A stretch of DNA of 64,000 bases from Alphaproteobacteria bacterium (GTDB lineage Bacteria > Pseudomonadota > Alphaproteobacteria > Sphingomonadales > Sphingomonadaceae), in assembly GCA_030424845.1 (NCBI GenBank), contig JAUHWC010000002.1, forward strand, positions 62,001 through 126,000, written 5' to 3'. The stretch's first letter is position 1. Every line of letters starts with the position of its first letter. Below are positions 41,967 to 56,190 of this stretch, piece by piece. The notes below the pieces were generated by a model. The model saw only the letters and a program-made list of their open reading frames with translations, was not told the origin of the DNA and ran no database searches. The position numbers and the translations under genes are program-made.

Positions 41967-42026
41967 AAGGTGGTGAGCCCTGCTGGGCTCGAACCAGCGA
42001 CCTACTGATTAAAAGTCAGTTGCTCT
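41967..42026. repeat. attL-side copy of the 60-bp direct repeat (3' end of tRNA-Lys)
   Basis: These 60 bp are identical to 56111-56170. They contain the 3' 56 nt of tRNA-Lys(TTT) on the minus strand (T arm, variable loop, anticodon arm and part of the D loop). The 5' part of the tRNA is absent here, so this is a partial copy left by site-specific integration. In the 329-bp stretch between genes (41850-42178) this repeat, the arm sites at 42158 and the DUF3604 promoter region are all I can support. Confidence 0.95.
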
Positions 42027-42157
42027 GCTATTTGCAGGGGCTTTCATCCTGCCTCATGCGATAAACTTGACCCCCATTTGTCCCCATGTGCGAATAGCTT
42101 AAGCGTAAAAATCGCTAACAGCGGGTCTCAAACGTTGTTATCAAGTCTCACGAAGAA

Positions 42158-42176
42158 TGAAACCTCGGTGAAACCT
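42158..42176 (+). promoter_or_regulatory. Paired TGAAACCT sites (candidate integrase arm sites, left)
   Basis: TGAAACCT occurs at 42158-42165 and 42169-42176, 11 bp apart. The same pair with the same spacing and orientation occurs at 56036-56054 near the other end. Repeats of this kind near both att sites usually bind the N-terminal domain of a tyrosine integrase. The left pair ends 3 bp before the integrase ATG, so it may also control integrase expression. Confidence 0.65.
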
Positions 42177-42178
42177 TC

Positions 42179-43432
42179 ATGGCCAAGCGTGTTCCCCCTC
42201 TTAGCGCAGCAAAGCTAGCTAAGCTGAAGCCGGATCCCACCAAGACCCTAGAGTTGGTCGACGGTGCGGTACCGGGCTTGCGAATGCGGATCACCCCGGC
42301 AGGCACCAAAACATGGTCTCTCAACATGCGCGCAAACGGTGTCATGAGGCGCTTCGAAGTCGGTAGCGAACTAGGGCTGGCTGATGCACGGACCAAAGCA
42401 CTCGACCTGCGCAAGTCGATTAAAGAGGGCGCAGACCCAACGCAGGAACGGCGCAACAGACGCCTTCAGGCCACGTCAGCAAAGATTGGTATCGGTACGC
42501 TGGAGTCTGTTGTCGATGCGTATTTTAGCAGTCCTTCCGGCAGAGCGCTTAGGACCGGTGGCGAACAGTCCCGGCGAGTAAAATCTGTCTTCGCCCCTCA
42601 TATGCGGCGACCAGCAGAGGAGGTAACTTCGGCCCAGCTGCAACTGACGATCGATGCGCATCAGAGTGTTTCTTCTGCGGCGAGAGCTACAGCATACCTA
42701 AAACCCATACTAAAGTGGGCCCGCAAGCGGGGGCTAGTTACCGACACCTTCGATCTCGAGAAACCACCGGAAGGCGCGCCAAAGCAAAGGCACTTCACAG
42801 ATGATGAGCTTGCAGCGCTCTGGCCAACCCTGACCGGCCCTTATGGCAACTGCGTTAAGTTCCTGCTCTACACCGGAGTGCGCCTCAGTAGCGCGGTGAA
42901 TGCGACTTGGGGTCAGGTCGACCTGCTCAAAGGAATATGGACCATCCCGGGTGGGAGCTTGAAGGACACTCGGCGCGCCGAAAAGCGAGGTAAGAAGCCT
43001 AAGGTTGATCTCGTTGTCCCACTCTCGAAGCAAGCACAGGCCTTGTTGTCGGAGGTCCATCAGGCGGAAATCGCACGAAGGCAACTGCAAGGCGATGGAC
43101 GCGACATAGCACCGGAAGGTCGTGTCTTCCTTGGTGATCGGGGAGGCAGACTTGCAAACTGGGATAGGTGGTTGAAATCGAATGCGGAGCGATCAGGAGT
43201 AACTGATTGGTCTGCCAAAGCCTGTCGGAGCACGGTTGCTACGCTAGCTGCTAACTGCGGCGCACCTCCGCACATTGCTTCGGTCATAATGGGGCATGCG
43301 AACATCGGCGGCCAGCTGCTGGCTGTCTACAACAAGGGTCGGTACTTTACGGAACACGCCGAAGCCCTTCAGGCGGTAGGTGATCAGCTAGATGCAATTG
43401 TTGGCACAGTGAAGAGAGGGGCGGCGCAATGA
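42179..43432 (+). CDS. Tyrosine-type site-specific integrase
   Basis: The 417-residue protein has a DUF4102-like N-terminus (LELVDGAVPGLRMRITPAGT, then WSLNMRANG) and a C-terminal tyrosine recombinase domain. Catalytic residues are Arg235 (LYTGVRLSSAVNATW), a Lys in the beta-hairpin (GSLKDTRR), Arg350, His373 (VIMGHANIG) and Tyr384 (AVYNKG). The usual His of the HxxR box is Lys347 (KACR), a tolerated variant in some integrases. It is adjacent to the attL-side repeat and reads into the element. It should cut at the tRNA-Lys 3' end. Confidence 0.95.
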   Translation: MAKRVPPLSAAKLAKLKPDPTKTLELVDGAVPGLRMRITPAGTKTWSLNMRANGVMRRFEVGSELGLADARTKALDLRKSIKEGADPTQERRNRRLQATSAKIGIGTLESVVDAYFSSPSGRALRTGGEQSRRVKSVFAPHMRRPAEEVTSAQLQLTIDAHQSVSSAARATAYLKPILKWARKRGLVTDTFDLEKPPEGAPKQRHFTDDELAALWPTLTGPYGNCVKFLLYTGVRLSSAVNATWGQVDLLKGIWTIPGGSLKDTRRAEKRGKKPKVDLVVPLSKQAQALLSEVHQAEIARRQLQGDGRDIAPEGRVFLGDRGGRLANWDRWLKSNAERSGVTDWSAKACRSTVATLAANCGAPPHIASVIMGHANIGGQLLAVYNKGRYFTEHAEALQAVGDQLDAIVGTVKRGAAQ

Positions 43433-44082
43433 TGGAGCAAGCGATCCAACTTCTGGACCTGTATCGGCCTTCGTTCGTCAAATCAGAGGCAGTTAGCCTA
43501 CTTCGTGCTGTGGCCAATAGGGACGACCCTGAAAGGCCGCTAAAGTTTCAAGTTTACGACATTGTCTACGCCTTCCAGCGATTAGAAGCACATCGCTTAG
43601 GTATCCGTGCGGATAAGCGGTCCGTCGCGTATAACGAGTTTAGGCAAGGCTATCTAACATCGCTGGCAATGTGGGTTCCCGGGCAGAATCCACTCGCTGA
43701 CCAGGTTAAGGTTCTTATTGACCATCAAGCAGCCGGTCGGGTTGAGGAAGTAGCGTCCGGCCTCAAAAAGTTGTTCAAGGATTTTGAAAATCACCACAGC
43801 CAACAACAGAAAGGGGTCGCAGGGACACCTCGTGACCCAAAACCGATCGACCAATACATCCTCGACTTGCTAGCCGTTAACCCGACGCTGAGTGAAAAGG
43901 CGCTCTGGAGGCAAATAGAGATCGACTCCGAGGGTCTACATAACCCGATAATTGGCGAAATTGCGCATGATTCCGTTTGGATTATCGACCCAACTCCCGA
44001 ACATATTAACCGCTCCAAAAAATACTCGCGAAGTTCCTTCCGCTCACGTCTTTCCAGACTGAAAAAAAATAAATCTCATTAG
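43429..44082 (+). CDS. Hypothetical protein coupled to the integrase
   Basis: The 217-residue protein begins at ATG 43429, overlapping the integrase stop by 4 bp (ATGA). It is polar and mostly helical, with LKFQVYDIVYAFQRLEAHRL, VKVLIDHQAAGRVEEVASGL and a basic tail (SRSSFRSRLSRLKKNKSH). The tail could bind nucleic acid. I do not recognise a family. Being translationally coupled to the integrase, it may help or control recombination. Lower GC than the flanking chromosome suggests transfer. Confidence 0.75.
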   Translation: MMEQAIQLLDLYRPSFVKSEAVSLLRAVANRDDPERPLKFQVYDIVYAFQRLEAHRLGIRADKRSVAYNEFRQGYLTSLAMWVPGQNPLADQVKVLIDHQAAGRVEEVASGLKKLFKDFENHHSQQQKGVAGTPRDPKPIDQYILDLLAVNPTLSEKALWRQIEIDSEGLHNPIIGEIAHDSVWIIDPTPEHINRSKKYSRSSFRSRLSRLKKNKSH

Positions 44083-44145
44083 CCGGCTTTTGAGATTCGG
44101 CGCCGCCAGACCCGTGTGATCGCAACGAATCACACGGAGGTCTTT

Positions 44146-44376
44146 ATGTCGCAAGCGATGCCAATCAACTTCGAATCCCTACCTGACGCAGCACTGGTCA
44201 GAGCCAACGTACTATATGCCGCGGGACTTCTTCCCTTCTCGAAAGCCACGCTGTGGCGAATGGTAAAGGCAGGTAGGTTTCCAGCCCCAATCAAGCTCTC
44301 AAAGAACGTAGCCGTATGGGAAGTCGGCACCATCAGGCGCTGGCTTGATGAGCTTTCTCGGGAGGCTGCGGAATGA
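44146..44376 (+). CDS. AlpA-family excisionase/transcriptional regulator
   Basis: From ATG 44146 (after CACGGAGG) the protein is 76 residues. The core LLPFSKATLWRMVKAGRFPA followed by PIKLSKNVAVWEVGTIRRWL is the AlpA/MerR-like winged helix of P4 AlpA and related proteins. These activate integrase or excise the element. Its stop overlaps the next ATG (ATGA), so it is coupled to the downstream cysteine-rich gene and primase. Confidence 0.88.
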   Translation: MSQAMPINFESLPDAALVRANVLYAAGLLPFSKATLWRMVKAGRFPAPIKLSKNVAVWEVGTIRRWLDELSREAAE

Positions 44377-44774
44377 CCTACCATCCTCAACATAGAACGT
44401 ATGGCCACGCTGCATGCTGCCGATGCGCTCGCATGATAGACCTTGCCAAAAGGCCACCAGCATTCATTGTCGAACAGGGTAACCTGTATGTCTACCTCTG
44501 CCACTGTCCGAGCTGCTACTGGAACTTGTTGGATATTGGCGAAGAGGAGTGTCGTGCATCAGTTGGTAAGGCGTTGGCTATTTGCTTCGCGGCGATGCCT
44601 GATCAATCTGGGTTGGCGATAACCACTTCAGCGGCGCTGCAAGCGCATCGTGGCGACTTGGTAAAAGCCTACGAGATTGGCGCGTCATTGCCGCGATGGC
44701 TGCACGATGCAATCTTTACAGGAGAAGCTGAAGCAAGCCTCATCCCTTCCGACATCTGGGAGGTGCCGCAATGA
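44373..44774 (+). CDS. Cysteine-rich hypothetical protein
   Basis: The 133-residue protein has an N-terminal Cys/His cluster (HAACCRCARMIDL, then VYLCHCPSCYWNLL) that could hold one zinc ion. The rest is helical with a final EASLIPSDIWEVPQ. It sits between AlpA and the primase with 4-bp overlaps on both sides, so all three are one translation unit. I do not recognise the family. A zinc-binding primase accessory is one guess. Confidence 0.75.
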   Translation: MTYHPQHRTYGHAACCRCARMIDLAKRPPAFIVEQGNLYVYLCHCPSCYWNLLDIGEEECRASVGKALAICFAAMPDQSGLAITTSAALQAHRGDLVKAYEIGASLPRWLHDAIFTGEAEASLIPSDIWEVPQ

Positions 44775-47158
44775 ACACCGCTTCCGACTATATCGCCCAC
44801 GGGTTTGCGCTGGTGCCAATCCCTAAGGGGCAGAAAGGTCCCAACACGCCCGGCTGGAACAAGCGGGAGAACGTCATCACCGACCCGGCGGATGCTTCTG
44901 GTCTGGTGGGTAACATCGGGCTGGCCCACGCTTTCAGCACTCCACCGACGATGGCGCTGGACATAGATGACATGGCGCGAGCCGTAACGTGGCTAGCAGA
45001 TAGGGGCATTGACCTTGATATGCTGCTGGATGCCGATGACGCGGTGCAGATCGTGTCGGGAAGAGAGGGTAGTGCCAAGCTCGTTTATCGCTTGCCTTCA
45101 GGTATTGCCCCGATCCCGCTGAAACAGATCACTGACCCTGCAACCGGCGATATGGTGCTGGAGTTCAGGTGTACCAGTGCCAATGGCAAAACCGTGCAGG
45201 ATGTTCTTCCGCCTTCTACCCACCCTGATACCGGGAAGCCCTACGCGTGGGGAGGTAAAGGTAGGTGGCAGAAACTGCCGGAAATACCGAAACCACTGCT
45301 GACGGTTTGGCGGGACTTGTTTGAGCCGACTGCCGCACGGCCAACCGCTAGCGGGGGCGCTAAAACAGCAACTAAAGACGACATACTCACGCTTCCCCCT
45401 GACACGATCCAGCACCTTCGTAGTGCCCTGCTGTCGATGCGCGCCGACGACTATCACCTTTGGATCAACGTCGGGATGGCACTGAAGCGGCTTGGTGATG
45501 TTGGCAGAGGTTTGTGGCTCGAGTGGTCCCTCACATCAGAAAAGTCACAAGACACCGAAAATCCGCGCGACCCTGCTAAAACTTGGGAAGGGTTTAACCC
45601 GACAAGCATCGATTACCGCTTTATCTTCGCTGAGGCACAGCGGCAGGGGTGGGTAAATCCGACAAAGAGTTATGCCGCCTCTACGTCTGCGGGTGCAGTA
45701 CTCGGTGCTGACGAAAAGCCTCAGGTTGGCGATGATAGTTGGGACGTGCCCCAGTCGTTGCCGGGCTCGCTGCGTAAGGTCAAAGAACTCAATGTAGACT
45801 GTTTGCCATCCACTGTGCAGAACGCTGTGAGCGATATCTCCGAGAGGCTCTCCTGCCCGGCGGACTACGTAGCAGCTTCCCTACTTGTCGGTGCTGGCGC
45901 CATTGTCGGCAACAGGGTTGGGATATTACCGAAACAACACGACGATACGTGGGAGGTGTACCCTGCATTCTGGGGTGGGATCGTGGGGCCACCCGGCTCG
46001 ATGAAAACCCCTGTGCAGCACGAGACCATGAAGCCTCTGCGACATATCGAAGAGGAAGACAATGTTGCCTACGGTATCGCTCTTGCGACCTATCAAGCGG
46101 CTAAAAAGCAATATGATAAGGACTCGTCGGCATACAAAGCGGGTAAGCTGAGCAGTATCCCCACAGAACCTACCGAACCGACTAAGCCCCGGCTCGTGGT
46201 GAACGATACTACCTATCAAGCGCTAGGAGAAATCTTGGCGGGCAATCCACGTGGGGTACTTATACATGGTGACGAGTTATCCGGCTTGCTGCACAGTCTG
46301 GATGCAGCTGGGCAGGAGGCTGCTCGCGGGTTTTACCTTTCGGGATGGGGTGGGACTGGCAATTACACCTTCGACCGTATTGGTCGGGGCAGCATTCGCC
46401 TTACCCACTATGCAATGTCCGTTTTTGGCGGCTTCCAGCCTGACAAGATCAAGCAATATGTGAGCATGGCACAGAGCGGTAGCTCGCAGAATGACGGTCT
46501 GTTGCAACGCTTCCAGCTACTGGTTTGGCCAGATCTGACTGAAGACTTCGTGCTGGTAGATCGCGCACCTGATCGTACTGCTCTTGCGGCGATGAATAGC
46601 GCGATGTTGGGTCTGCGAACGGTAGGTGATGGAAGAAAGGCCAATAAGCACGGCTCTCGGTTGTTCCGCTTCGCTCCGGATGCACAGTCCACCTTCAACA
46701 AATGGTACGTTCGCAACGAGCAACTGCTTCGAAATGACCATTTAGGGGCGTCGGAACAAAGCCATTTCGCTAAGTACCGTAGTCTTCTGCCCGGCTTAGC
46801 ACTCCTGTTCCATCTGCTTGAGGGTCATGAAGGAGACGTATGTGAGCAGTGTTTTGTCGGTGCTTTCAATTATGCCCATTATCTTAAGTCCCATGCACAG
46901 CGGATATACGGTGCAGTCCACGGGATCGATGGCGCAGGTACTGAAGCACTGGCAGCCCGCCTGAAAAAGGGAAGCCTTCCCTCTGGCTTCACAGCACGGG
47001 CAGTCTACACCAAGGGTTGGCGGAGCCTTTCTGACAAACATATGGTCTCGCAGGCGGTGGATCAGCTGCTTGAGCTAGGCTGGCTCAGGGAGAGGTCCGT
47101 GGACACCGGGGGCAGGCGGACCATCGAGTATGACATTAACCCACGCATCTTCGAGTAG
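44771..47158 (+). CDS. Primase/helicase-like replication protein (Prim-Pol, PriCT-2, DUF3987)
   Basis: The 795-residue protein has three parts. The N-terminal Prim-Pol domain carries the metal-binding DID at residues 64-66 (MALDIDDM) and SAKLVYRLPSGIAP. A PriCT-2 region lies at about residues 215-290 (LLSMRADDYHLWINVGMALK). The C-terminal DUF3987 region has a Walker A at 406-413 (GPPGSMKT) and a Walker B-like DE at 501-502 (VLIHGDELSGLL). Such proteins start replication of mobile elements and phage satellites. No replication origin was identified. Confidence 0.9.
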   Translation: MNTASDYIAHGFALVPIPKGQKGPNTPGWNKRENVITDPADASGLVGNIGLAHAFSTPPTMALDIDDMARAVTWLADRGIDLDMLLDADDAVQIVSGREGSAKLVYRLPSGIAPIPLKQITDPATGDMVLEFRCTSANGKTVQDVLPPSTHPDTGKPYAWGGKGRWQKLPEIPKPLLTVWRDLFEPTAARPTASGGAKTATKDDILTLPPDTIQHLRSALLSMRADDYHLWINVGMALKRLGDVGRGLWLEWSLTSEKSQDTENPRDPAKTWEGFNPTSIDYRFIFAEAQRQGWVNPTKSYAASTSAGAVLGADEKPQVGDDSWDVPQSLPGSLRKVKELNVDCLPSTVQNAVSDISERLSCPADYVAASLLVGAGAIVGNRVGILPKQHDDTWEVYPAFWGGIVGPPGSMKTPVQHETMKPLRHIEEEDNVAYGIALATYQAAKKQYDKDSSAYKAGKLSSIPTEPTEPTKPRLVVNDTTYQALGEILAGNPRGVLIHGDELSGLLHSLDAAGQEAARGFYLSGWGGTGNYTFDRIGRGSIRLTHYAMSVFGGFQPDKIKQYVSMAQSGSSQNDGLLQRFQLLVWPDLTEDFVLVDRAPDRTALAAMNSAMLGLRTVGDGRKANKHGSRLFRFAPDAQSTFNKWYVRNEQLLRNDHLGASEQSHFAKYRSLLPGLALLFHLLEGHEGDVCEQCFVGAFNYAHYLKSHAQRIYGAVHGIDGAGTEALAARLKKGSLPSGFTARAVYTKGWRSLSDKHMVSQAVDQLLELGWLRERSVDTGGRRTIEYDINPRIFE

Positions 47159-47462
47159 TAGGTGTGTTTGGTACCTTTTGGTGGTTTTGTAGGTACCCCC
47201 CTAGTACATTTTTTTACTTTTTATCCCCCAAACCTGCGAGGATGAGGGGGGAGGTCACCGACAAAACCATCAAAAGCCCCCCCGCTTCGATGGGGTAACC
47301 GCGCAAATCCGAGCCAGTATACGTCCGGACTGCTCCAGCTGGTGCCCTAGGTCGTGTTGACAAAAGGCATCAGCCATCTCTCTTGAATTGTTTGATCCGA
47401 AAAATTTTCGAGAAATATATCTATCGGCGACAATGGCCTGCGGTATTTATAATGAAATTATA
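47159..47462. other. Gene-free stretch after the primase gene
   Basis: No supportable gene on either strand. It has runs of T and A after the primase stop, a C-rich tract (ccccc repeats near 47226 and 47280) and a TTGACA-like box at 47357-47362 without a good -10 at normal spacing. It becomes very AT-rich towards 47463, where the small HTH gene ends. An origin for element replication could lie here, but no iterons are visible. Confidence 0.5.
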
Positions 47463-47636
47463 TTAAGTATTTTCTGATTCTATATAATTAAATAATATTT
47501 CTAATGTTTTTGAAATAGGTCTTTGCCCGCTTTCATAGTATTTAATAGCCCTTATCGAAACTCCTAGCTTTTTTGCCATTAATTCCTGAGTGAAGCCAAG
47601 TTTGTTCCTGCGAGACCTGAATTCTTTATGTGTCAT
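47463..47636 (-). CDS. Small XRE-type helix-turn-helix protein
   Basis: A 57-codon minus-strand frame starts at ATG 47636 with AAAGGAG 7 nt before it. It reads MTHKEFRSRRNKLGFTQELM, then AKKLGVSIRAIKYYESGQRP and ISKTLEILFNYIE: a complete XRE/Cro HTH domain (FTQELMAKKLGVSIRAIKYYE). It is unusually AT-rich. A lone repressor-like protein between the replication genes and the CRISPR-Cas cargo may control the element's life cycle. The target operator is unknown. Confidence 0.85.
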   Translation of the reverse strand: MTHKEFRSRRNKLGFTQELMAKKLGVSIRAIKYYESGQRPISKTLEILFNYIESENT

Positions 47637-47804
47637 TCTGGCTCCTTTGGTCTAGACGACGCATTCTCTTTTGCGCGGCTTTCGGTTCCGTTGGCGTAAT
47701 TCGCTTGATCGATGCGGCTAGTCGACAATCAAACCTTCACCCATTTGTGTCAATGGACCACGCCTGTCAAAAGACAGCATCCCTCTAGCGGATCAGAGAA
47801 ACAG

Positions 47805-48062
47805 ATGAAAAAAGGCCTTTCACGCTCCGCCCTTGAGCAGTTCATCCGCTGCCCTCGTTGCTTCTATCAGCAGCGCAGACTGAGCTTGAACCAGCCATCG
47901 ATGGTGCCGCTGACCCTAGCGGTTGCAACGGACGCTCTCCTCAAGAACGAGTTCGATGCAATTCGTGACCGCCAAAACATGCAAACAACAGGTCCCTTAG
48001 ATCACCATGTTGGAGCAATGCTAGCTGAGGCCACTCGGCTCCATAAGGAAGCCATGTCCTGA
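47805..48062 (+). pseudogene. N-terminal fragment of a PD-(D/E)XK-nuclease-like protein
   Basis: From ATG 47805 the frame encodes 85 residues. MKKGLSRSALEQFIRCPRCF, then SMVPLTLAVATDALLKNEFD resemble the start of a bacterial PD-(D/E)XK-superfamily protein (the C-P-x-C-F and D-x-L-L-K-x-E-F-D motifs). Typical relatives are longer, near 250 residues, and carry the nuclease core after this point, which is missing. TGA at 48060 ends the frame. I read it as a truncated relic. A genuine small protein is possible. Confidence 0.55.
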
Positions 48063-48345
48063 CTTGCTAAGCCAAAGGCTGCCCCCTTGCCGCAACTGCG
48101 CGAAGCAGAAAGGCTATTGAACGAAGGGGAGATACTCGCCTCGGACGCTGCGTCCTACGTAGATGCAACTCAGATGGATACTGCTTTGGCTGAACTACAC
48201 CGCCAACAGGGTCAGGTCAGAGCTATGATAGTCCAAGTGGAAGCCGCCAAGGGCAGGCAGGGCGATATGCAGGTAGGGCGGTTAGTGGCGATTGCGGTTT
48301 GTATGAAGCAAAAGGCGGGGGGGGGTAGAAGCTGGAATTTAGGCG
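48063..48345. other. Gene-poor stretch between the nuclease fragment and the tracrRNA
   Basis: An open frame continues from 48063 to 48374 in the same phase as the fragment before it, but it has no standard start except TTG 48087 and no recognisable domain. A run of nine G lies at 48317-48325. It may be the decayed remainder of the upstream gene. I see no other feature. Confidence 0.4.
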
Positions 48346-48474
48346 GAAAAAGAGCTATGCGGCGCCTCCGTTAATGGAAGGCGCCGCAATAAAACCGGCG
48401 TTGTCTTTGGGATGCCGAGCCCACACGAAGAGACTTTTGCTTGCGAAAAGCAGCCCCCTCTCGTTCTGCTAGAA
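48346..48474 (-). ncRNA. tracrRNA of the type II-C system
   Basis: On the minus strand, 48474-48450 is an anti-repeat that pairs with 25 nt of the CRISPR repeat with only one G-U. A TTTT internal loop and a short lower stem (CGCA then GC with one bulged A) follow, matching the 5' end of the repeat as in known type II duplexes. Downstream lies a CGGC/GCCG hairpin and then a terminator: GCGGCGCC and GGCGCCGC arms at 48359-48387 followed by TTTTT at 48351-48347. The start is set by a promoter at 48479-48506. RNA length is about 129 nt. Confidence 0.88.
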
Positions 48475-48478
48475 ATTT

Positions 48479-48506
48479 ATGCTAGCATTATGCGCTGGGA
48501 GGTCAA
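48479..48506 (-). promoter_or_regulatory. tracrRNA promoter, overlapping the cas9 promoter region
   Basis: On the minus strand TTGACC (48506-48501) and the extended -10 TGCTAGCAT (48487-48479) are separated by 16 bp, and transcription would start right at the anti-repeat. ATGCTAGCAT at 48479-48488 is a perfect palindrome, so an extended -10 of the same sequence reads on the plus strand towards cas9 as well. The tracrRNA -35 box overlaps the region between the cas9 ribosome site and ATG. Confidence 0.7.
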
Positions 48507-48508
48507 GT

Positions 48509-51500
48509 ATGGCATCAGAACTCGTCTTTGGTTTCGACATTGGTACCACGTCAATCGGCTCGGCTGTTGTAAAGATGGACAGCGCCGCCGGCACTGGCGA
48601 GGTTGCTCACTTAGGTGTGCGCATTTTTCCAGAAGCGCGCGACCCTGACGGCATCCCCTTTAACCAGGAACGCAGAAAACGTCGCATGATGCGTCGCCAA
48701 TTGCGGCGTCGGCGCACAAGACGGCGCGATCTCAACCAATTGCTCAATCAGGCGGGTTTTCTTCCAGAATTTAGCAAGACATCAAGTTCGGCGTGGGCAA
48801 ACGCCATGGGTATGGATCCATGGCTACTGAGAGCGAAAGCCGTAAGTGAACCTCTTGGCGCCCTCGAACTTGGCCGAGCACTCTATCACCTTGCACAGCG
48901 CCGCCACTTTCGTGGCCGTGATTTTGAGGGGACGACCGTAGATACCGGCGACAGCGAGGACACACCAAGCGCGGACGAACAGAAGGCGGCCTCCCAACGC
49001 GAAAAAGACCGCAGCACTCTTAAATCCTCTGGCCAAACGCTTGGTGCTTTCCTTGCAGCAATTCCGGAGCGAGAAGAGCGACGCCGCGGGTACCATTTCG
49101 CGCGAGAAGATGTCGCTGCCGAGTTCCGTGCTATCATCACAGCGCAAGCCCCCCATCACGCACAACTGCGTGAAGCCGATTTCGTTGCGGCACTTCAGCA
49201 GGCAATCTTCGATCAAAAACCGGTATTCTGGCGCAAGGCGACACTTGGGGTCTGTCGGCTCATGCCCGGTGCGGAGCTTGCTGCCTCGGCTTCCTGGGTG
49301 TCGCAGGAAAAGCGCATGCTGGAAAAACTTAACAACCTGCGGATCGAGGAAGGCAACGGTCGTCCGCTGGACGATAATGAGCGTAAGGCACTGCTGGCCC
49401 TGCTGCGTACCCAGGATACCGCGACTTGGGGCGGCATCCGTCGGCACTTGAAGCTGTATTGGCGTAAGAATGATCTACCTGAAAAGCCAACCTTCAATCT
49501 TGAGCGCGGAGGCGAAAAAGGGCTAGTCGGCAACCGACTGGAAAATCGCTTATCGATGATCATGGGCCAGCGTTGGGACGCTGACGGAGTTCTGCGCGAT
49601 CGGATGCGCCGGGAAATTCACGCCCGCCTTTACGCCGCGGACTACGGGCAAATCGGCAGCCGCATCGTTATCCGACGCGAGGCGGAGCGGCGGCTCGCAC
49701 GGTCCGAGGAGGGCACGCGCCTTCAGGCAGACTTTGGCTTGACCGACGAAGAAGTCGACAAACTGGTTAGCCTGACGTTCGCGCCCGGATGGGAGCCATT
49801 TTCCGAGGACGCTCTCTGGCAATTCCTGCCCCGGCTGAAGCAAGGCGCGATGTTCGGTACTTTGCTCTCTGGGCCCGAAGAGGAAAACTGGCGCGCCAGC
49901 TCTTTCCCGGACCGGGAGAAACCAACCGGCAGCTGGGTCGATCGCTTGCCTACACCTGGAAACAGCCGGGAAGAGGTTGACCGCCAGAAATCAGTCCGAA
50001 ATCCCACGGTTCTGCGTGTGCAGAACGAATTACGCAAGGTCGTCAACAACCTGATTGCAGTCTACGGACAGCCAGATCGCATAAGGGTGGAAGTGGCACG
50101 CGAGGTGGGCAAATCCGCTCGCGATCGAGCGGAGGAACTCACGCGCAACCGCGCCCGCGAGAAGGAGCGCAAGAAGGCCGCGGGCGAACTGCGGAAGGGG
50201 GGCATCACAGCACCTTCCCGCGATGACATCGAGAAATACCTCTTGTGGGAGGAATGTAATCGCCAGTGTCCATACACCGGGTTGATGATCGATTTTGGCG
50301 CCCTATTCCATCGCGGCGAATTCCAGGTGGAGCATATCTGGCCGCGCTGGCGATCGTTGGACAACAGCTTCGCCAACAAGACGCTGTGCCACCGCGATTT
50401 CAACCTGCGGAAATCCAACCGCACGCCGTTCGAGGCCTTCGAACATGACGCGGAAGGTTGGGAAAGTGCTCTCACACGCGTTCGGTCCTTTTCGGGACCA
50501 CGCGGGCGGGTGGAAATAAAAGCGAAGCGCTTCGCGGCGACCGAAATCCCGGCCGACTTCGCCGCCCGCCAATTGACCGACACCGGCTACGCCGCTCGCC
50601 AGGCAGTGGGTTTCCTCAAGATGCTGTTCCCCGATTTGGGCCAAACCAGCGAGGTCCGCGTCGCCACTCTGGCCGGCCGGGTCACGTCGCGGCTGCGGCA
50701 CAACTGGGGCCTGAACAACATCCTGTCCGACACAGGCGAAAAGACCCGCGCGGATCACCGCCACCACGCCATGGACGCGCTGGTCGTGGCGCTGGCGCAC
50801 CCCGGTTATACCCAGCGCCTGTCACGCTGGTTTCAGGCACGTGACGCGGCGACGCCGCAGGCGGAACCGCCACTCGATCCGCCGTTCCGCGATGCGCGGG
50901 CACAAGCTGAGCGCAAGGCGGCAGACATCGTCGTTTCGCACCGCGTGCGCCGCAAGGTGTCCGGGCCGCTGCACAAAGACACCACGTATGGCGATGCCGG
51001 ACCAGCCCAAGGTAGCGGCGGCATCGCGTATCGCTGGTTCGTGACTCGCAAGCCGGTAGAGATGCTCACCAAATCGCTGCTCGGTGACGATGCTGCCTGG
51101 CCCGATCCGACAATCCGTGAGCGAGTGCGCGCTTGGGTGGAAGCCAATGGCGGTGATCCGAAGAAGGCGTTCCTGAACGGCTATCCCACAGTGTCCGATG
51201 GCGGGGCGCCGATTCGCAAGGTGCGTATCCACGTCAAGCAGCAGCAAAAACTGATGGCGCCCTTGAAGAACGGCTATGCTGATCTTGGCAACAACCATCA
51301 CATGGCCGTGTTCCGAAATGGTGACGGACGGGTTGAGACCGAGATCGTCAGTCTGTTCGAGGCGGCCGACCGGTTGCGGCGCCATCAGCCAGTGGTCCGC
51401 AAGTCGCTGAACGACGCGCCGCTTGTGATGTCGCTCGCGCAGGGAGACACAGTGTCTTTCTCCGACGGTAAGCTGAAAGGGCTTTGGATCGTTCAGAGCG

Positions 51501-51649
51501 TCTGGTCCGCCGGTCCCATAGTTCTCTGGCGAGCCGAGGATGCAGTCGGCAGCAGCGTGTTCCGCCCAACTGCTGCATCCATCCTGAAGTCCGGTGGCCA
51601 AAAAGTAGCCGTCGATCCCATCGGCCGCATCCGCCCGGCGCGTGACTGA
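48509..51649 (+). CDS. cas9: CRISPR-associated endonuclease Cas9, type II-C
   Basis: ATG 48509 after GGGAGG gives 1046 residues, a compact type II-C size. RuvC-I is FGFDIGTTSIG with Asp10. An Arg-rich bridge helix follows (RRKRRMMRRQLRRRRTRRRD). RuvC-II has Glu528 (RVEVAREVGK). The HNH domain has CNRQC and VEHIWPR with catalytic His609 (Glu608 replaces the usual Asp, as I recall for the Parvibaculum Cas9 lineage). RuvC-III is DHRHHAMDAL with His753 and Asp756. All catalytic residues are intact, so it should cleave DNA guided by crRNA and tracrRNA. Stop and cas1 start share a base (TGATG). Confidence 0.98.
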   Translation: MASELVFGFDIGTTSIGSAVVKMDSAAGTGEVAHLGVRIFPEARDPDGIPFNQERRKRRMMRRQLRRRRTRRRDLNQLLNQAGFLPEFSKTSSSAWANAMGMDPWLLRAKAVSEPLGALELGRALYHLAQRRHFRGRDFEGTTVDTGDSEDTPSADEQKAASQREKDRSTLKSSGQTLGAFLAAIPEREERRRGYHFAREDVAAEFRAIITAQAPHHAQLREADFVAALQQAIFDQKPVFWRKATLGVCRLMPGAELAASASWVSQEKRMLEKLNNLRIEEGNGRPLDDNERKALLALLRTQDTATWGGIRRHLKLYWRKNDLPEKPTFNLERGGEKGLVGNRLENRLSMIMGQRWDADGVLRDRMRREIHARLYAADYGQIGSRIVIRREAERRLARSEEGTRLQADFGLTDEEVDKLVSLTFAPGWEPFSEDALWQFLPRLKQGAMFGTLLSGPEEENWRASSFPDREKPTGSWVDRLPTPGNSREEVDRQKSVRNPTVLRVQNELRKVVNNLIAVYGQPDRIRVEVAREVGKSARDRAEELTRNRAREKERKKAAGELRKGGITAPSRDDIEKYLLWEECNRQCPYTGLMIDFGALFHRGEFQVEHIWPRWRSLDNSFANKTLCHRDFNLRKSNRTPFEAFEHDAEGWESALTRVRSFSGPRGRVEIKAKRFAATEIPADFAARQLTDTGYAARQAVGFLKMLFPDLGQTSEVRVATLAGRVTSRLRHNWGLNNILSDTGEKTRADHRHHAMDALVVALAHPGYTQRLSRWFQARDAATPQAEPPLDPPFRDARAQAERKAADIVVSHRVRRKVSGPLHKDTTYGDAGPAQGSGGIAYRWFVTRKPVEMLTKSLLGDDAAWPDPTIRERVRAWVEANGGDPKKAFLNGYPTVSDGGAPIRKVRIHVKQQQKLMAPLKNGYADLGNNHHMAVFRNGDGRVETEIVSLFEAADRLRRHQPVVRKSLNDAPLVMSLAQGDTVSFSDGKLKGLWIVQSVWSAGPIVLWRAEDAVGSSVFRPTAASILKSGGQKVAVDPIGRIRPARD

Positions 51650-52581
51650 TGCTGCGGAAGACGATCGAGATCGCAACTCCGGGAACTCGCCTCTCGGTTG
51701 CGCACTGCCAACTGGTGATTGAACGACCGGAGTTACCCAAGGCAACTGTCCCCATCGAGGATCTGGGCGTACTTGTAATCGACGACGCACGCGCCAGCTA
51801 TACGCAGGCGGTCTTCATCGAATGTCTTGCCTCCGGCGCCACCGTCATCATTTCCGGCCACGATCACCTACCGACCGGAATGATGCTGCCGATGGACGGG
51901 CATCATGCGCTGACCGAGCGGCACTGGGCGCAGGTTGAGGCAAGCGCACCGCTGCGCAAGCGCTTGTGGCAGACGATCATCGTCGCCAAGCTGCGCCAGC
52001 AGGGGCGGCTACTCACCAAGACGACCGGGCAGGATGCGGGACTAGCCGCGCTGGCGGGTAGGGTGCGATCTGGCGACCCGGACAACCTGGAGGCACAGGG
52101 CGCGCAGCGTTATTGGCCAAAGCTGTTCGGTCGGGACTTCCGCCGCGATCGCGCCGCCGGTGATGCCAATGCGTTGCTCAATTATGGCTATGCCATCGTA
52201 CGAGCGGCCTGTGCTAGGGCGCTGGTGGCATCTGGCCTCCTTCCCTCGCTCGGCGTATGGCACCGCAACCGGTCCAACCCCTTCTGCCTTGCCGATGATC
52301 TGCTGGAGCCGTGGCGCCCGATCGTCGACTGGAAAGTGCACGACATCAAAAAGAGGGGCGATGGACCGCAGCGTCTTGACGACCGCCCAACCCGCGCAGC
52401 GCTGCTTTCCATTTTAAACGAAACAGTGCTCGTGGGGAGCAAGCGCTGGCCGGTGTTGCTCGGCATCGAACAATCGGCAGCAAGCCTCGCAAAGGCACTG
52501 ATGCAGAATGACCGCGATGCGCTGATTCTGCCCGGAAGCCTGCCTCTCCAACTTGACTTGCTTGACGATGGCGCGGGCTGA
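51649..52581 (+). CDS. cas1: CRISPR-associated endonuclease Cas1
   Basis: The 310-residue protein has the Cas1 metal-binding residues: Glu148 (DNLEAQGAQRYWP), His205 (GVWHRNRSNPF) and Asp217 (ADDLLEPWRP). N-terminal beta-domain segments (EDLGVLVIDDARASYTQAVF) are also family-like. Cas1 with Cas2 integrates new spacers. It is coupled to cas9 and overlaps cas2 by 14 bp, so the adaptation module is intact. The sequence fits the type II Cas1 length. Confidence 0.97.
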   Translation: MLRKTIEIATPGTRLSVAHCQLVIERPELPKATVPIEDLGVLVIDDARASYTQAVFIECLASGATVIISGHDHLPTGMMLPMDGHHALTERHWAQVEASAPLRKRLWQTIIVAKLRQQGRLLTKTTGQDAGLAALAGRVRSGDPDNLEAQGAQRYWPKLFGRDFRRDRAAGDANALLNYGYAIVRAACARALVASGLLPSLGVWHRNRSNPFCLADDLLEPWRPIVDWKVHDIKKRGDGPQRLDDRPTRAALLSILNETVLVGSKRWPVLLGIEQSAASLAKALMQNDRDALILPGSLPLQLDLLDDGAG

Positions 52582-52930
52582 GACACCACCAGCCTATCCC
52601 ATCCAGCCCTGGGGGTGGCGCAGTATGTGGATCATCGCCATGTTTGATCTGCCTGCGGATACTAAAGCCGCACGCCGCGCCTATACTCGTTTTCGCAAGG
52701 ATCTTCTCAAAGACGGCTTCACGATGATGCAGTTTTCGGTCTATATTCGCCACTGCGCATCGTTCGACAATGCCGAACTACATGCTGCTCGCATGGGGGC
52801 CAAAGTACCTCAAAAAGGAGAGGTCCAATTCCTGATCATCACCGACAAGCAGTTCGGCCGAATCAAGGTCTATGTCGGAAAAAAACGTGACAATCCCACC
52901 CCGGCGCCTGCCCAACTGCAGCTTTTTTGA
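52568..52930 (+). CDS. cas2: CRISPR-associated endoribonuclease-like Cas2
   Basis: From ATG 52568 (inside the end of cas1) the protein is 120 residues. The ferredoxin-like core is MWIIAMFDLPADTKAARRAY, then GFTMMQFSVYIRHC and VQFLIITDKQFGRIKVYVG. The conserved Asp in FDLP is present. A 20-residue N-terminal extension precedes the core, so a later start at the ATG of MWIIAMF is possible. It bridges Cas1 dimers during spacer acquisition. The array begins 49 bp after its stop. Confidence 0.94.
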   Translation: MARAETPPAYPIQPWGWRSMWIIAMFDLPADTKAARRAYTRFRKDLLKDGFTMMQFSVYIRHCASFDNAELHAARMGAKVPQKGEVQFLIITDKQFGRIKVYVGKKRDNPTPAPAQLQLF

Positions 52931-52941
52931 CCTCGCGAAGG

Positions 52942-52966
52942 AAAAAGCCGAGCATTTTCAATCGGT
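52942..52966 (-). terminator. Candidate terminator of the crRNA precursor
   Basis: On the minus strand ACCGA and TCGGC form a short stem (one G-T) followed by TTTTT at 52946-52942. It lies 13 bp beyond the last repeat in the crRNA direction, in the right place to end the minus-strand array transcript before it enters cas2 in antisense. The stem is weak. Confidence 0.5.
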
Positions 52967-52978
52967 AACACGAGGGCT

Positions 52979-54468
52979 GTTCTAGCAGAACGAGAGAGGG
53001 CTGCAATCCGCAGCTGGCATGACGGCGGGGTTCAATGGGAATTAGTTCTAGCAGAACGAGAGAGGGCTGCAATCCGCAGCTATCATCGCACGGACGAAGG
53101 ACAGGAAGCGGTTCTAGCAGAACGAGAGAGGGCTGCAATCCGCAGCCCGTCGGGAAGCGTGGCGTCATAGAACAGGGTTCTAGCAGAACGAGAGAGGGCT
53201 GCAATCCGCAGCTTCGTATACTCAAACCCACGAGATCGCATCGTTCTAGCAGAACGAGAGAGGGCTGCAATCCGCAGCTAGACCGAGCCTGTGGTCAGGT
53301 TGACGAACGTTCTAGCAGAACGAGAGAGGGCTGCAATCCGCAGCTGTTGGGGCACTTGATCTCGACCAGACCGTCAGTTCTAGCAGAACGAGAGAGGGCT
53401 GCAATCCGCAGCACGCGCCTGTCGATACCGCCGCATGGGCGAGTTCTAGCAGAACGAGAGAGGGCTGCAATCCGCAGCCTATTCGCGGCCTATCTCATCA
53501 GTGGCAGGGTTCTAGCAGAACGAGAGAGGGCTGCAATCCGCAGCTGGGCGTGGTGACATTCCTTGCACAAGCTGGTTCTAGCAGAACGAGAGAGGGCTGC
53601 AATCCGCAGCGCGATTGTCCGCCGCCTAATATGTCCGGCGTTCTAGCAGAACGAGAGAGGGCTGCAATCCGCAGCACTTCGCCATCCTCAGCGCAGTCTC
53701 ACGCAGTTCTAGCAGAACGAGAGAGGGCTGCAATCCGCAGCTCAACAACGAGCCACTTGCTCGCAGCTTTGGTTCTAGCAGAACGAGAGAGGGCTGCAAT
53801 CCGCAGCTCGGTGCCGTGGTGATACTCGTCAACCAGTTGTTCTAGCAGAACGAGAGAGGGCTGCAATCCGCAGCCGCTCGGCATCATCGCTCTAATCACC
53901 ATTGGTTCTAGCAGAACGAGAGAGGGCTGCAATCCGCAGCGGTTGTGTAACTGGCATAAGGTGCTGAAGGGTTCTAGCAGAACGAGAGAGGGCTGCAATC
54001 CGCAGCTAATCGGTCGCCTGCTCGGCGTTCTGGATAGTTCTAGCAGAACGAGAGAGGGCTGCAATCCGCAGCATAAGCACGGCCAAGGTGTGGCGGTGGA
54101 TGGTTCTAGCAGAACGAGAGAGGGCTGCAATCCGCAGCCGTGCTGCCGAAGATCAGGTTGGGGTCTGCGTTCTAGCAGAACGAGAGAGGGCTGCAATCCG
54201 CAGCGCGATAGTGCGCCGCCTGATATGTCCGGCCGTTCTAGCAGAACGAGAGAGGGCTGCAATCCGCAGCGGACAACGAACACGTCACCGATGCTATCCT
54301 GTTCTAGCAGAACGAGAGAGGGCTGCAATCCGCAGCAAGGTAGGATTGTGTTCGCGCAGGATTGGCGTTCTAGCAGAACGAGAGAGGGCTGCAATCCGCA
54401 GCAATCAATGGCCGGTTCCCCAACCGTCCGTAGTTCTGGCAGAACGAGAGAGGGCTGCAATCCGCAGC
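52979..54468 (-). CRISPR. Type II-C CRISPR array: 23 repeats of 36 bp, 22 spacers
   Basis: Repeats begin at 52979 and recur mostly every 66 bp to 54433-54468. They are identical except the last one, which has a T-to-C change in the crRNA sense (TTCTGG in place of TTCTAG on the plus strand). Spacers are 30 bp apart from number 6 (32), number 10 (29) and number 13 (31), counted from cas2. Pairing with the tracrRNA anti-repeat shows the crRNA is read on the minus strand, where the repeat starts GCTGCGGATTGC. Each repeat contains TTGCAG, 16 bp and the extended -10-like TGCTAGAAC, a probable internal promoter. Confidence 0.98.
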
Positions 54469-54572
54469 GCTATCCCCTGTCTAAGCAACCACCAGATCGT
54501 CTGCAGCCAGTATCAACCTACTTCGCTCCCCGGTGGATAACGGCAGATAAACTCCAGCACCACCGTGGGTCA

Positions 54573-54581
54573 TGCTATAAT
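54573..54581 (+). promoter_or_regulatory. Extended -10 just before the HGG-motif gene
   Basis: TGCTATAAT is a perfect extended -10 ending 6 bp before the ATG at 54587, so transcripts would begin at or near the start codon (leaderless). No good -35 is present, as is common with extended -10 boxes. The stretch 54469-54572, which is the upstream side of the array in the crRNA sense, holds no other feature I can support. Confidence 0.55.
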
Positions 54582-54586
54582 GGCGC

Positions 54587-54910
54587 ATGCCGCTGCCCAA
54601 CATCATCTCCGGTAATGCACCCCGGTGCAAGGCTCAGTGCAAGGCAAGGGGTGACCAGTGCCGCAACCCAGCCGCCTACGGTATGACCGTGTGCAGATAC
54701 CACGGTGCCAAGAAGCCCGAAGCTATTAAGCGCGGGAAGAGCCACTGGAACTACCAGCACGGGCAAGAGACGCTCGAAGCCAAGGCCGAGCGGAGCAAGA
54801 GGCTTGCAGAGCTGCACGAGCTTGAGGCACTATCATACGCATACGGGCTGGTGCCCGCAGGAACCCCACGATGGCGGGGTCGGAAGCCGAAGGGGATAGC
54901 GGGCTCGTGA
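54587..54910 (+). CDS. HGG-motif-like phage/satellite protein
   Basis: The 107-residue protein has the pattern RCKAQCKARGDQCRNPAAYG, then MTVCRYHGAKKPEAIKRGKS, close to the Cys-rich HGGxSxG-type proteins found in prophages and mobile elements (C-x-x-x-C, C-x-x-H-G). It likely binds zinc and perhaps nucleic acid. Function is unknown. The stop overlaps the next gene as GTGA. Confidence 0.65.
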   Translation: MPLPNIISGNAPRCKAQCKARGDQCRNPAAYGMTVCRYHGAKKPEAIKRGKSHWNYQHGQETLEAKAERSKRLAELHELEALSYAYGLVPAGTPRWRGRKPKGIAGS

Positions 54911-55311
54911 AACTTAAAACCCTCCTACCAGTGTGCGCTTTGCTTGCTTCTGTTGCTGCACAGGCGGCTGACGATGATGAACAGTGGGTGGAGCTTGCTC
55001 GCGATAGCGAAGCTGGAGTGGTGTCTTCCTATGATGCCCGTTCGGTCCGCACGGAAGGTGATTACCGGCAAGTCTGGGCACGTGATCGTTACAATGATCA
55101 GCACCGTGATGTTCGGGAAGTCAGGGCGCTCTATGAAGTTGATTGTGCCGAACCGGCTATCAGGCTCGTCCAGAGCCTGACCTTTCTGCGCAGCGGGCGG
55201 GTACAGGAAGTTGAGGGTGTCGACAGCTGGAAGAACATTATCGACTGGGGTAGGGATTACGACCCCTCAGGAGCCTTGCACCGCGCTGTCTGCCGAGCTC
55301 AGGTACGTTGA
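54907..55311 (+). CDS. Surface-adhesin E-like secreted protein
   Basis: GTG 54907 overlaps the stop of the HGG-motif gene (GTGA). The 134-residue protein has a signal peptide (KLKTLLPVCALLASVAAQAA) and the surface-adhesin-E-like pattern QWVELARDSEAGVVSSYDAR, then YRQVWARDRYND and a CRAQVR end. Two Cys residues could form a disulfide. This family is often found on mobile elements with unclear function. Confidence 0.6.
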   Translation: MKLKTLLPVCALLASVAAQAADDDEQWVELARDSEAGVVSSYDARSVRTEGDYRQVWARDRYNDQHRDVREVRALYEVDCAEPAIRLVQSLTFLRSGRVQEVEGVDSWKNIIDWGRDYDPSGALHRAVCRAQVR

Positions 55312-55316
55312 TCAGT

Positions 55317-55343
55317 AGGAGCGAACCAGACGGTGGCTGGTCG
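55317..55343. repeat. Direct repeat flanking the nuclease-like gene, left copy
   Basis: ACCAGACGGTGGCTGGT at 55325-55341 recurs exactly at 55987-56003, with imperfect similarity for about 5 bp on each side. The copies flank the gene at 55379-55813. Confidence 0.7.
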
Positions 55344-55378
55344 GGCGGTAGGCTTCACCGTGGTTCCTTTATTGCCCG

Positions 55379-55813
55379 ATGATATCCCTACTCATCCTCG
55401 CCGCCACAGCGGTAGTTCCAACTGGTCAGGTGTTCACCTGCAATCCCACTCATTTTTGGGACGGTGATGGCCCTATCTGGTGCGAAGAGGGACCTAGGAT
55501 CAGGCTGTCCGGTATTGCTACGCGCGAGATGGACGGGACCTGCCGCAGTAACCAGCCCTGCCCTGATGCAAGCGCTGAGGAAGCCAGAGATTCTCTTGTG
55601 AGACTGGTTGGTAGACCCACTGGTCGTAGCGCGCAGGGACATGTTCTCGTTGAAGGTCCGACAATGACCTGCACGTCTCTTGGTAACGGTGTCGGAAGCC
55701 GCACGGCTGCTTGGTGTGTTTCACCGATAGGCGGCGACCTGTCCTGCGCCATGGTTGCTGGTGGGTGGGCGTTGCGTTGGGAGCGCTATTGGGGTGATCA
55801 TCGCTGCGATTAA
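55379..55813 (+). CDS. Thermonuclease (SNase)-like secreted protein, probably degenerate
   Basis: The 144-residue protein has a short signal sequence (MISLLILAATAVVPTGQVFT) and a DGDGPIWCEEGPRIRLSGIA stretch that matches the start of staphylococcal-nuclease-like proteins (D-G-D and R-I-R-L-x-G-I). The usual second catalytic region is not clear. Several Cys residues suggest disulfides. It may be a divergent or inactive nuclease. It lies between the two 17-bp direct repeats. Confidence 0.55.
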   Translation: MISLLILAATAVVPTGQVFTCNPTHFWDGDGPIWCEEGPRIRLSGIATREMDGTCRSNQPCPDASAEEARDSLVRLVGRPTGRSAQGHVLVEGPTMTCTSLGNGVGSRTAAWCVSPIGGDLSCAMVAGGWALRWERYWGDHRCD

Positions 55814-55978
55814 CAGCTTGCAACGAGCCACCGGAAGGCTTGCTCCAAGAGTGAACACCTAACGCGCAGTTTAGTATGTACACACAACCCGTGGGTCCCA
55901 TCTGACGGATTGGGGGGTACCGCCCCGGTGGGGTGCCGCTGGTCAGGATTTAACAGGGGGGGTGGGGGTGTCGAATCA

Positions 55979-56005
55979 GGGAGCAGACCAGACGGTGGCT
56001 GGTTG
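55979..56005. repeat. Direct repeat flanking the nuclease-like gene, right copy
   Basis: Right copy of the 17-bp exact repeat described for 55317-55343, 662 bp away. Confidence 0.7.
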
Positions 56006-56035
56006 GCTAGCAGGGCAGCTAGATCGCACCAACGG

Positions 56036-56054
56036 TGAAACCTAAGTGAAACCT
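56036..56054 (+). promoter_or_regulatory. Paired TGAAACCT sites (candidate integrase arm sites, right)
   Basis: TGAAACCT at 56036-56043 and 56047-56054, 11 bp apart, the same unit, spacing and orientation as at 42158-42176. It lies 57 bp inside the attR-side repeat. Confidence 0.65.
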
Positions 56055-56110
56055 TTGCAATGAAGCACAGACGCTTATCGCCTAGGTTAATCCCCATAAG
56101 TATCTGAAAT

Positions 56111-56170
56111 AAGGTGGTGAGCCCTGCTGGGCTCGAACCAGCGACCTACTGATTAAAAGTCAGTTGCTCT
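56111..56170. repeat. attR-side copy of the 60-bp direct repeat (within tRNA-Lys)
   Basis: Identical to 41967-42026. Here it belongs to the intact tRNA-Lys gene, covering its 3' 56 nt and four bases beyond the CCA end. Confidence 0.95.
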
Positions 56171-56190
56171 ACCAACTGAGCTAAGGGCCC
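56115..56190 (-). tRNA. tRNA-Lys (TTT), intact, integration target
   Basis: A 76-nt cloverleaf on the minus strand: acceptor GGGCCCT pairs with AGGGCTC (one G-U), the anticodon arm ACTGA-CTTTTAA-TCAGT exposes TTT, the T arm contains GTTCGAG, the discriminator is A and CCA is encoded. The element lies downstream of its 3' end, so the tRNA stays functional after integration. Its 5' end is 3 bp from the folK stop. Confidence 0.97.

Follow-up and report, generated by a model that had tools for sequence, protein, structure and literature searches.

A complete type II-C CRISPR-Cas9 system as probable cargo of a satellite-like element in a tRNA-Lys gene of Sphingomonadaceae

The DNA analysed here, called the window below, is a 64,000-nucleotide stretch (positions 62,001 to 126,000, forward strand) of contig JAUHWC010000002.1 in the Sphingomonadaceae assembly GCA_030424845.1. 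Within it a 14.1-kb element occupies a tRNA-Lys gene, with integrase, AlpA-like and primase-helicase genes at one side and a type II-C CRISPR-Cas9 system in much of the remainder (Table 1). The boundaries are plain: an exact direct repeat of 60 bp recurs at a spacing of 14144 bp, and this single repeat accounts for 41 of the 52 repeated 20-mers of the window, array excluded. Its right copy lies in and just past the 3′ end of an intact tRNA-Lys(ttt) gene on the minus strand; its left copy is a truncated tRNA whose score is still high enough for the Rfam threshold. The intact tRNA marks the right end, and the integrase lies at the opposite, left end. G+C content is 55% in the block from integrase to primase, 60–61% in the cas genes, 63.5% in the left flank and 64.8% in the right flank. 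An initial annotation, made from the sequence alone, had described the repeat of the tRNA-Lys 3′ end around about 14.1 kb, the integrase, AlpA-like and primase/helicase-like genes at one side, and a complete cas9-cas1-cas2 with tracrRNA and a 23-repeat array. All of these were recovered: the backbone genes match PF00589, PF05930 and PF09250 with PF08707 and PF13148, and the CRISPR-Cas parts were identified from profile matches, an anti-repeat and a fold (the tracrRNA as a candidate).

The five backbone genes are open reading frames (ORFs, called mechanically throughout) with ATGA overlaps. The integrase scores 47 bits against PF00589 (cut-off 27.1), and it shares the ATGA at 43429–43432 with the next gene, which showed no similarity at E≤0.01 to its positional counterparts in eight relatives. 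The primase-helicase scores 237.4 bits against PF13148 (DUF3987). Capsid, tail, terminase and relaxase families were sought with Pfam, PHROGs and further profile scans, and none was found in the scanned element ORFs. A weak match of the gene at 44373 to Cas2 (E 0.0073) was taken as chance. The gene order is that published for phage-inducible chromosomal minimalist islands, or PICMIs (PMC10803314; here and below, statements on published systems draw on excerpts of the cited papers).

The CRISPR-Cas9 module is a complete type II-C set with open frames, made up of cas9, cas1 and cas2 only, a tracrRNA candidate and an array; no further credible cas gene was found among the scanned element ORFs. 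The tracrRNA candidate folds on the minus strand with a z-score of −2.77, and relatives suggest that cas9 starts at the ATG at 48509. The closest solved Cas9 sequences are 6kc8, 8ja0 and 6jdq, which we take to be from Neisseria meningitidis. In its cas9-cas1-cas2 genes, a tracrRNA beside cas9, 36-bp repeats and spacers of 29–32 bp, the module is the same as other type II-C systems. It is unusual only in its location, inside a satellite-like element.

Table 1. Features of the element, in window coordinates
Feature	Position	Strand	Evidence
attL, 60-bp copy of the tRNA-Lys 3′ region	41967..42026	-	exact repeat; Rfam tRNA remnant, 34.5 bits
Tyrosine integrase with Arm-DNA-bind_3 domain	42179..43432	+	PF13356, PF00589, phrog_1
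int-overlapping gene (4 nt, ATGA), iolg-like by position only	43429..44082	+	no family match
AlpA-like regulator/excisionase	44116..44376	+	PF05930, 25.0 bits (cut-off 21); phrog_66, phrog_2790
Gene between alpA and primase, ATGA overlaps on both sides	44373..44774	+	weak Cas2 match (E 0.0073), taken as chance
Prim-Pol/PriCT_2/DUF3987 primase-helicase, 795 aa	44771..47158	+	PF09250, PF08707, PF13148
HTH_3 (Cro/CI-like) regulator, 57 aa	47463..47636	-	PF01381, 37.1 bits; phrog_8 and others
116-aa ORF, possibly a remnant	47712..48062	+	matches only the N-terminal part of phrog_31195
tracrRNA candidate	48345..48480	-	anti-repeat 48442-48474; tail with GC hairpin, then U run
cas9, type II-C, ORF of 1056 aa	48479..51649	+	TIGR01865, 553.5 bits; PF18541, PF13395; RuvC and HNH motifs
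cas1	51649..52581	+	PF01867; Cas1_II, 5.1e-94
cas2	52553..52930	+	PF09827; Cas2_II, 1.6e-43
CRISPR array, 23 repeats of 36 bp, 22 spacers	52979..54468	-	crRNA strand inferred from tracrRNA candidate
HGGxSTG-like small protein	54587..54910	+	NF041373, 18 (below cut-off of 29); phrog_3678; 60% to L024
Small protein with Adhesin_E match	54871..55311	+	PF16747, 31.8 bits (cut-off 23.7)
Small protein of phrog_18798	55379..55813	+	5e-39; 68-71% homologues near DUF3987 genes of L032, L230
attR, overlapping the intact tRNA-Lys (56115-56190)	56111..56170	-	exact repeat and tRNA call

In one genome of the same genus (G014) the left flank, an unbroken tRNA-Lys gene and the right flank are contiguous, without the insert. 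A query made of the two flanks joined aligns there over its whole length, and where the flanks meet, both the 60-bp segment and the remainder of the tRNA are undamaged. This locus is an empty site, of the kind that the initial annotation had proposed to look for in related genomes, and no other was seen. Of the 24 congeners besides the window's own genome, 23 have a match to the right flank; among the loci fetched by that search, however, a left-flank match next to the tRNA occurs in G014 alone, which means that the left neighbourhood is not shared by the others. This exact element was found in its own genome alone, among the genomes searched (our sampling of the genus, the family and the order is partial).

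Because of the empty site the repeats are not coincidental, and we rejected the reading, now extremely improbable, that the cas operon belongs to the ancestral chromosome and is bounded by repeats that arose by chance. What could be said for it are two Cas9 relatives, in G113 (72% identity, beside a putative ClpA-like ORF) and in G231 (52%, on a short contig), with no integrase, AlpA or DUF3987 profile match in the sequence fetched around them. Against it stand the exact repeat, the empty site and the scarcity of Cas9 in the genus: a match at E≤1e−20 occurs in two of 40 genomes, own included, and the other protein is only 33% identical and encoded at another locus. No genome among those searched kept the cas genes at this locus without the integrase backbone.

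The insert itself divides into backbone and cargo. In a cas-free relative from the same family (G049), the primase gene (70–71% identity) and the HGGxSTG-like gene (60%) lie about 0.7 kb apart; in the window the same two genes are 7.4 kb apart, and the intervening DNA is mostly CRISPR-Cas. Two cas relatives resemble the window at the DNA level from 48358 up to the array. On this comparison the cas module is a separable insert, acquired separately, and the initial annotation's view of it as cargo holds.

The related backbones agree with this picture. A primase match at E≤1e−20 occurs in 19 of 298 family genomes, own included. The 18 other genomes yielded 17 backbone neighbourhoods (excluding G212, at a contig end, and another fragment of G049), and none of the 17 has cas9, cas1 or cas2 at E≤1e−3. 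A strong integrase match lies nearby in 15; the match is weak in L228 and there is none in L032. An AlpA or helix-turn-helix (HTH) match is present in ten, by an iterated profile seeded partly with relatives picked by eye. Pfam was run on nine of these ten: six pass the curated cut-off for AlpA or HTH_17, L231 is at it, and L233 and L235 fall below it. Sixteen elements (the window's and 15 relatives) were compared at the end of int: an overlapping ORF shares 1–14 nt with it in ten and exactly 4 nt in six, with ATGA in four and GTGA in two. att repeats were found in four of the 15 relatives, at tRNA-Lys (6.6 kb), tRNA-Lys(ctt) (6.5 kb), tRNA-Phe (6.3 kb) and tRNA-Gln (13.1 kb). G292, which like G049 is one of the 17, has the same gene order and the ATGA overlap beside a tRNA-Tyr gene; an att repeat was looked for there and none was found. 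Two PICMI-like elements of about 6.5 kb (L027 and L029), in tRNA-Lys genes of two other genera, have the integrase far from the tRNA, as in the window.

The backbones are mosaic, as the integrase of G049, which also has AlpA, is only 23% identical to that of the window. Tail genes cross backbones as well: the HGGxSTG-like gene is found in L024, L031 and L233, and the gene at 55379 in L032 and L230. Integrase relatives in G136 and G240 (52–54%) have no match to the window primase or cas genes beside them. PADLOC, run on ten ORFs of the relatives' cargo, reported a restriction-control-like HTH protein in L025 and little else; a match of an L026 ORF to PtuA was set aside. From its sequence we take this ORF to encode a Sel1-type repeat protein. 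The 116-aa ORF of the window presumably resembles PD-(D/E)XK nucleases at its start and may be a truncated remnant.

The cas module has its own set of relatives. Cas9 matches at E≤1e−20 occur in 26 of 298 family genomes, and Cas1 matches at E≤1e−90 in four of 396 genomes of the order, own included in both counts. One of the four, G611, belongs to another genus of the family and holds a second element (L314 and L315, 7437–20061 of the joined stretch), where the last 15 nt of a tRNA-Asn recur 12.55 kb away. It contains an integrase, a six-repeat array, a stop-interrupted cas1 fragment, a cas9 of 1046 aa, an HTH_17 gene, a Toprim_3 primase and a DUF3987 gene; no cas2 match was found in it, and its five spacers had no match (up to six mismatches) in the fetched viral contigs. 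In a tree of 25 rows its Cas9 is the sister of the window Cas9 (81% identity, support 100/99), followed by G113 and then G231. Its integrase has 25% identity to that of the window, it has another type of primase, and its cas genes lie between int and the HTH gene, whereas those of the window follow the primase. This second element, which carries the sister Cas9, differs in integrase, primase and tRNA site, so such elements have probably acquired the cas lineage repeatedly or transferred it among themselves. Two captures and a transfer between satellites would both fit, and the tree does not decide.

The broken cas1 of G611 and its lack of a cas2 match, the confinement of the exact element to its own genome and the possible remnant ORFs at 47712–48374 would also suit a formerly mobile satellite that is now fixed, its backbone immobile and its CRISPR-Cas kept by the host for the host's own benefit. 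The att repeats of the window element are nevertheless identical over 60 bp and its five backbone genes are open, with their ATGA overlaps, and we consider fixation unlikely, if a serious alternative.

Another element of the family, in a tRNA-Ala gene of G226 (L242, 2344–18402; 16-bp repeat at 2404 and 18387), combines AlpA, an integrase and a MobA/MobL relaxase with cas9-cas1-cas2 of another Cas9 lineage. By analogy, the window element could be an integrative and mobilizable element, mobilized in trans by a conjugative system and using its primase-helicase for replication after transfer; the type II-C Cas9 of CampyICE1, an integrative and conjugative element (ICE), points the same way (PMC8743540). 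No relaxase match was found in the scanned element ORFs (oriT was not looked for), the backbone follows the PICMI order, and we judge mobilization of this kind quite unlikely. The translated ORFs of L242 also show a long repeat array. Two further loci were noted in passing. In G032 (L067, 4800–17637) a tRNA-Asn, an integrase fragment and a 16-bp tRNA-end repeat enclose cas9-cas1-cas2, possibly a decayed element. G261 (L070, L112) has a Cas9 remnant beside a full-length cas1 and a cas2, with two related-repeat arrays on different contigs.

Comparing the spacers with phages, as the initial annotation had proposed, gave targets for four of the 22; for the other 18 none was found. The same comparison with relatives of the backbone brought little: over the 17 neighbourhoods plus L226 and L227 there was one match, with six mismatches, in L226, which is without such a backbone. 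Queried against phage records, the whole array hit five of them at E≤1, in every case at spacer 6 (best E 0.003). The matches of this spacer lie in the YqaJ genes of Caulobacter phage DMCA and Sphingopyxis phage VSN-002, with four mismatches of 32 each, and at two sites in bacterial genomes, one with three mismatches and one with five (loci L114 and L132).

Spacers 10, 16 and 19 match one phage group, in putative terS-like and portal-like genes. Spacers 10 and 19 (window 53611–53639 and 54205–54234) correspond to two versions of the same site, in a 190-aa ORF that is putatively terS and shares its contig with a TerL-like ORF. They differ at three of 29 shared bases, all at third codon positions of the target's frame, and look as if acquired from diverging phages. 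The target of spacer 16 lies within a putative portal-protein ORF. A pattern from spacers 10 and 19 identified four IMG/VR contigs, and contigs with a relative of their TerL-like ORF were then gathered. In the 85 loci (853 kb) the best matches have 2 mismatches for spacer 10, 1 for spacer 19 and 2 for spacer 16, and none of 66 mononucleotide-shuffled spacers reached six mismatches or fewer. On the 3′ side of the protospacer (crRNA orientation) the better matches read CAGCAA, CGTCAA, GCGCAA, GCGCTA, CCGCCA and CGGCAA, near NNNCAA, a pattern drawn from only about three independent target sites and with weaker versions of the terS site often lacking the C at position 4. Since the genes targeted are terS-like and portal-like, the phage group is suggested to be a rival rather than the helper.

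No spacer matched any of the 58 listed IMG/VR loci with primase relatives (controls, 0 of 66), and none matched plasmids at E≤0.1. Within its own genome the array found itself, the anti-repeat and three short matches (E 0.17–0.58) taken as chance, and no self-targeting. Against family genomes it matched 27 of 397, own included, with related arrays in four and otherwise many short matches. Sites with five to seven mismatches to spacers 14 and 16 in bacterial genomes were not counted as targets.

The element is probably a PICMI-like phage satellite, integrated in tRNA-Lys, that acquired an entire type II-C CRISPR-Cas9 system as cargo. Int, together with AlpA and the int-overlapping gene, would excise it, the Prim-Pol/DUF3987 protein would replicate it, and a helper phage would package it without capsid remodelling; a satellite that does not shrink the capsid would have room for the 6.1-kb CRISPR module, whereas P4 capsids hold about 12 kb (PMC9122126). 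The carried Cas9 would protect the cell, and thereby the element and its helper, from phages other than the helper, and Cas1-Cas2 would allow continued spacer acquisition. A more detailed version is tentative, and we put it at somewhat less than an even chance as a whole: a satellite that spreads a complete, still-learning immunity. In it, concatemers in full-size helper capsids would escape the limit of about 12 kb set by P4 capsids; the array would be kept free of helper-phage spacers, so that Cas9 would kill the helper's rivals only; and the Cas9 lineage would live partly as satellite cargo, having entered at least two different backbones.

Several observations weigh against the satellite reading. 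Neither a helper phage nor an excised circle, a particle or a transfer was observed. The integration site is tRNA-Lys, not the fis site of PICMIs, and in the excerpted text complete PICMIs are reported in Vibrio only (PMC10803314). A DUF3987 profile, built with G611 included, had no match in the 26 other Cas9 neighbourhoods of the family sample, so the combination is rare; these neighbourhoods come from 25 genomes, L044, L064, L070, L237 and L238 are shortened by contig ends, and three have an integrase profile match. Prim-Pol/DUF3987 relatives also occur in ordinary phages. An alignment query with the primase found at least 58 loci in IMG/VR; among the 58 listed, two (L252 and L253) have integrase and AlpA profile matches too. 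Cas1, Cas9 and single-sequence primase queries found no relative in IMG/VR, and a megablast of the element against phage records matched in the tRNA stretch only. The spacer-target contigs are an enriched set, because the spacers themselves or a gene of the phage they match served to collect them.

L252 and L253, two predicted-virus contigs, each combine matches to integrase, the AlpA profile and the DUF3987 primase and are possibly further such satellites. L254–L309 comprise many phage contigs, several of 37–39 kb, encoding primase relatives that are mostly 29–33% identical over residues 7–685.

Satellites are known for short defence systems, and in the excerpts consulted E. coli P2-like and P4-like elements are reported to lack large ones such as CRISPR-Cas (PMC9122126). 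Where CRISPR immunity is raised in staphylococci during infection by the helper, it prevents mobilization of the satellite (PMC12931967). The window element poses the question of how a helper-dependent element could acquire spacers against other phages without targeting its own helper, and this conflict becomes testable here because the CRISPR and the satellite sides of it are joined in one unit. It would extend the PICMI-like design to tRNA sites in Sphingomonadaceae, and it suggests a possible route for the spread of type II-C CRISPR-Cas. A type II-C Cas9 on an ICE, without cas1 and cas2, was already known (PMC8743540). Among the open-access papers listed by our searches we found no report of a satellite carrying CRISPR-Cas, a scope outside which most subscription papers and bioRxiv preprints lie.

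Among known elements the closest kind, judged by gene content, is the PICMI and not P4. The PICMI search model requires an integrase (PF00589 or serine type), AlpA (PF05930 or PF12728) and a primase with DUF3987 (PF13148) or DUF5906; a gene overlaps int in 21 of 35 PICMI subfamilies, most often by ATGA, and many subfamilies have a single gene between alpA and the primase (PMC10803314). The window element shares the three required genes, the ATGA overlap of int, the single intervening gene and the carriage of defence cargo, and no structural or packaging genes were found in it. In PICMI115, alpA, int and iolg are required for excision and the primase for copy number, and its DNA is packaged as concatemers in full-size capsids (PMC10803314). 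A PICMI is further marked by being induced, packaged as concatemers and transduced by a helper phage. The differences are the integration site (tRNA-Lys versus fis), the host family (Sphingomonadaceae versus Vibrionaceae), the size (14.1 kb versus an average of 6.7 kb), the Prim-Pol domain on the primase and the CRISPR-Cas system. Integration at fis is described as a hallmark of PICMIs (Fis is one of four mandatory genes according to the Methods but optional in the search model), and incomplete PICMI-like variants are described outside Vibrio (PMC10803314). Because its site is tRNA-Lys and not fis, the element falls outside strict PICMI membership, and we call it PICMI-like by design.

P4-like elements share with it the integrase, AlpA, a primase-helicase function and defence cargo (PMC8628076, PMC9122126); among the P4 families sought, int and AlpA alone were found. 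The initial annotation had called the element P4-like; its satellite-type backbone stands, and the P4 assignment does not. Pfam and PHROGs scans of the element ORFs gave no match to psu, delta, epsilon or P4-alpha (PF03288; sid, which has a custom profile, was not covered). With these defining families missing from the profile scans, with the PICMI order fitting and with CRISPR-Cas reported absent from the E. coli elements, we rejected P4-like membership as very unlikely. Phage-inducible chromosomal islands, which are recognised by phage-dependent induction and by interference or packaging genes, have int, an AlpA-type regulator and a primase in common with the element (PMC6092414), in which structural genes were likewise not found; the interference and packaging genes of those islands had no match in its family scans. 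A published precedent for the cargo is CampyICE1, a 70-kb conjugative element whose spacers are mostly predicted against plasmids, described in a paper that also cites CRISPR-Cas on Vibrio islands (PMC8743540). Both it and the window element carry a type II-C Cas9 as cargo of an integrative element, but cas1 and cas2 accompany it only in the window element.

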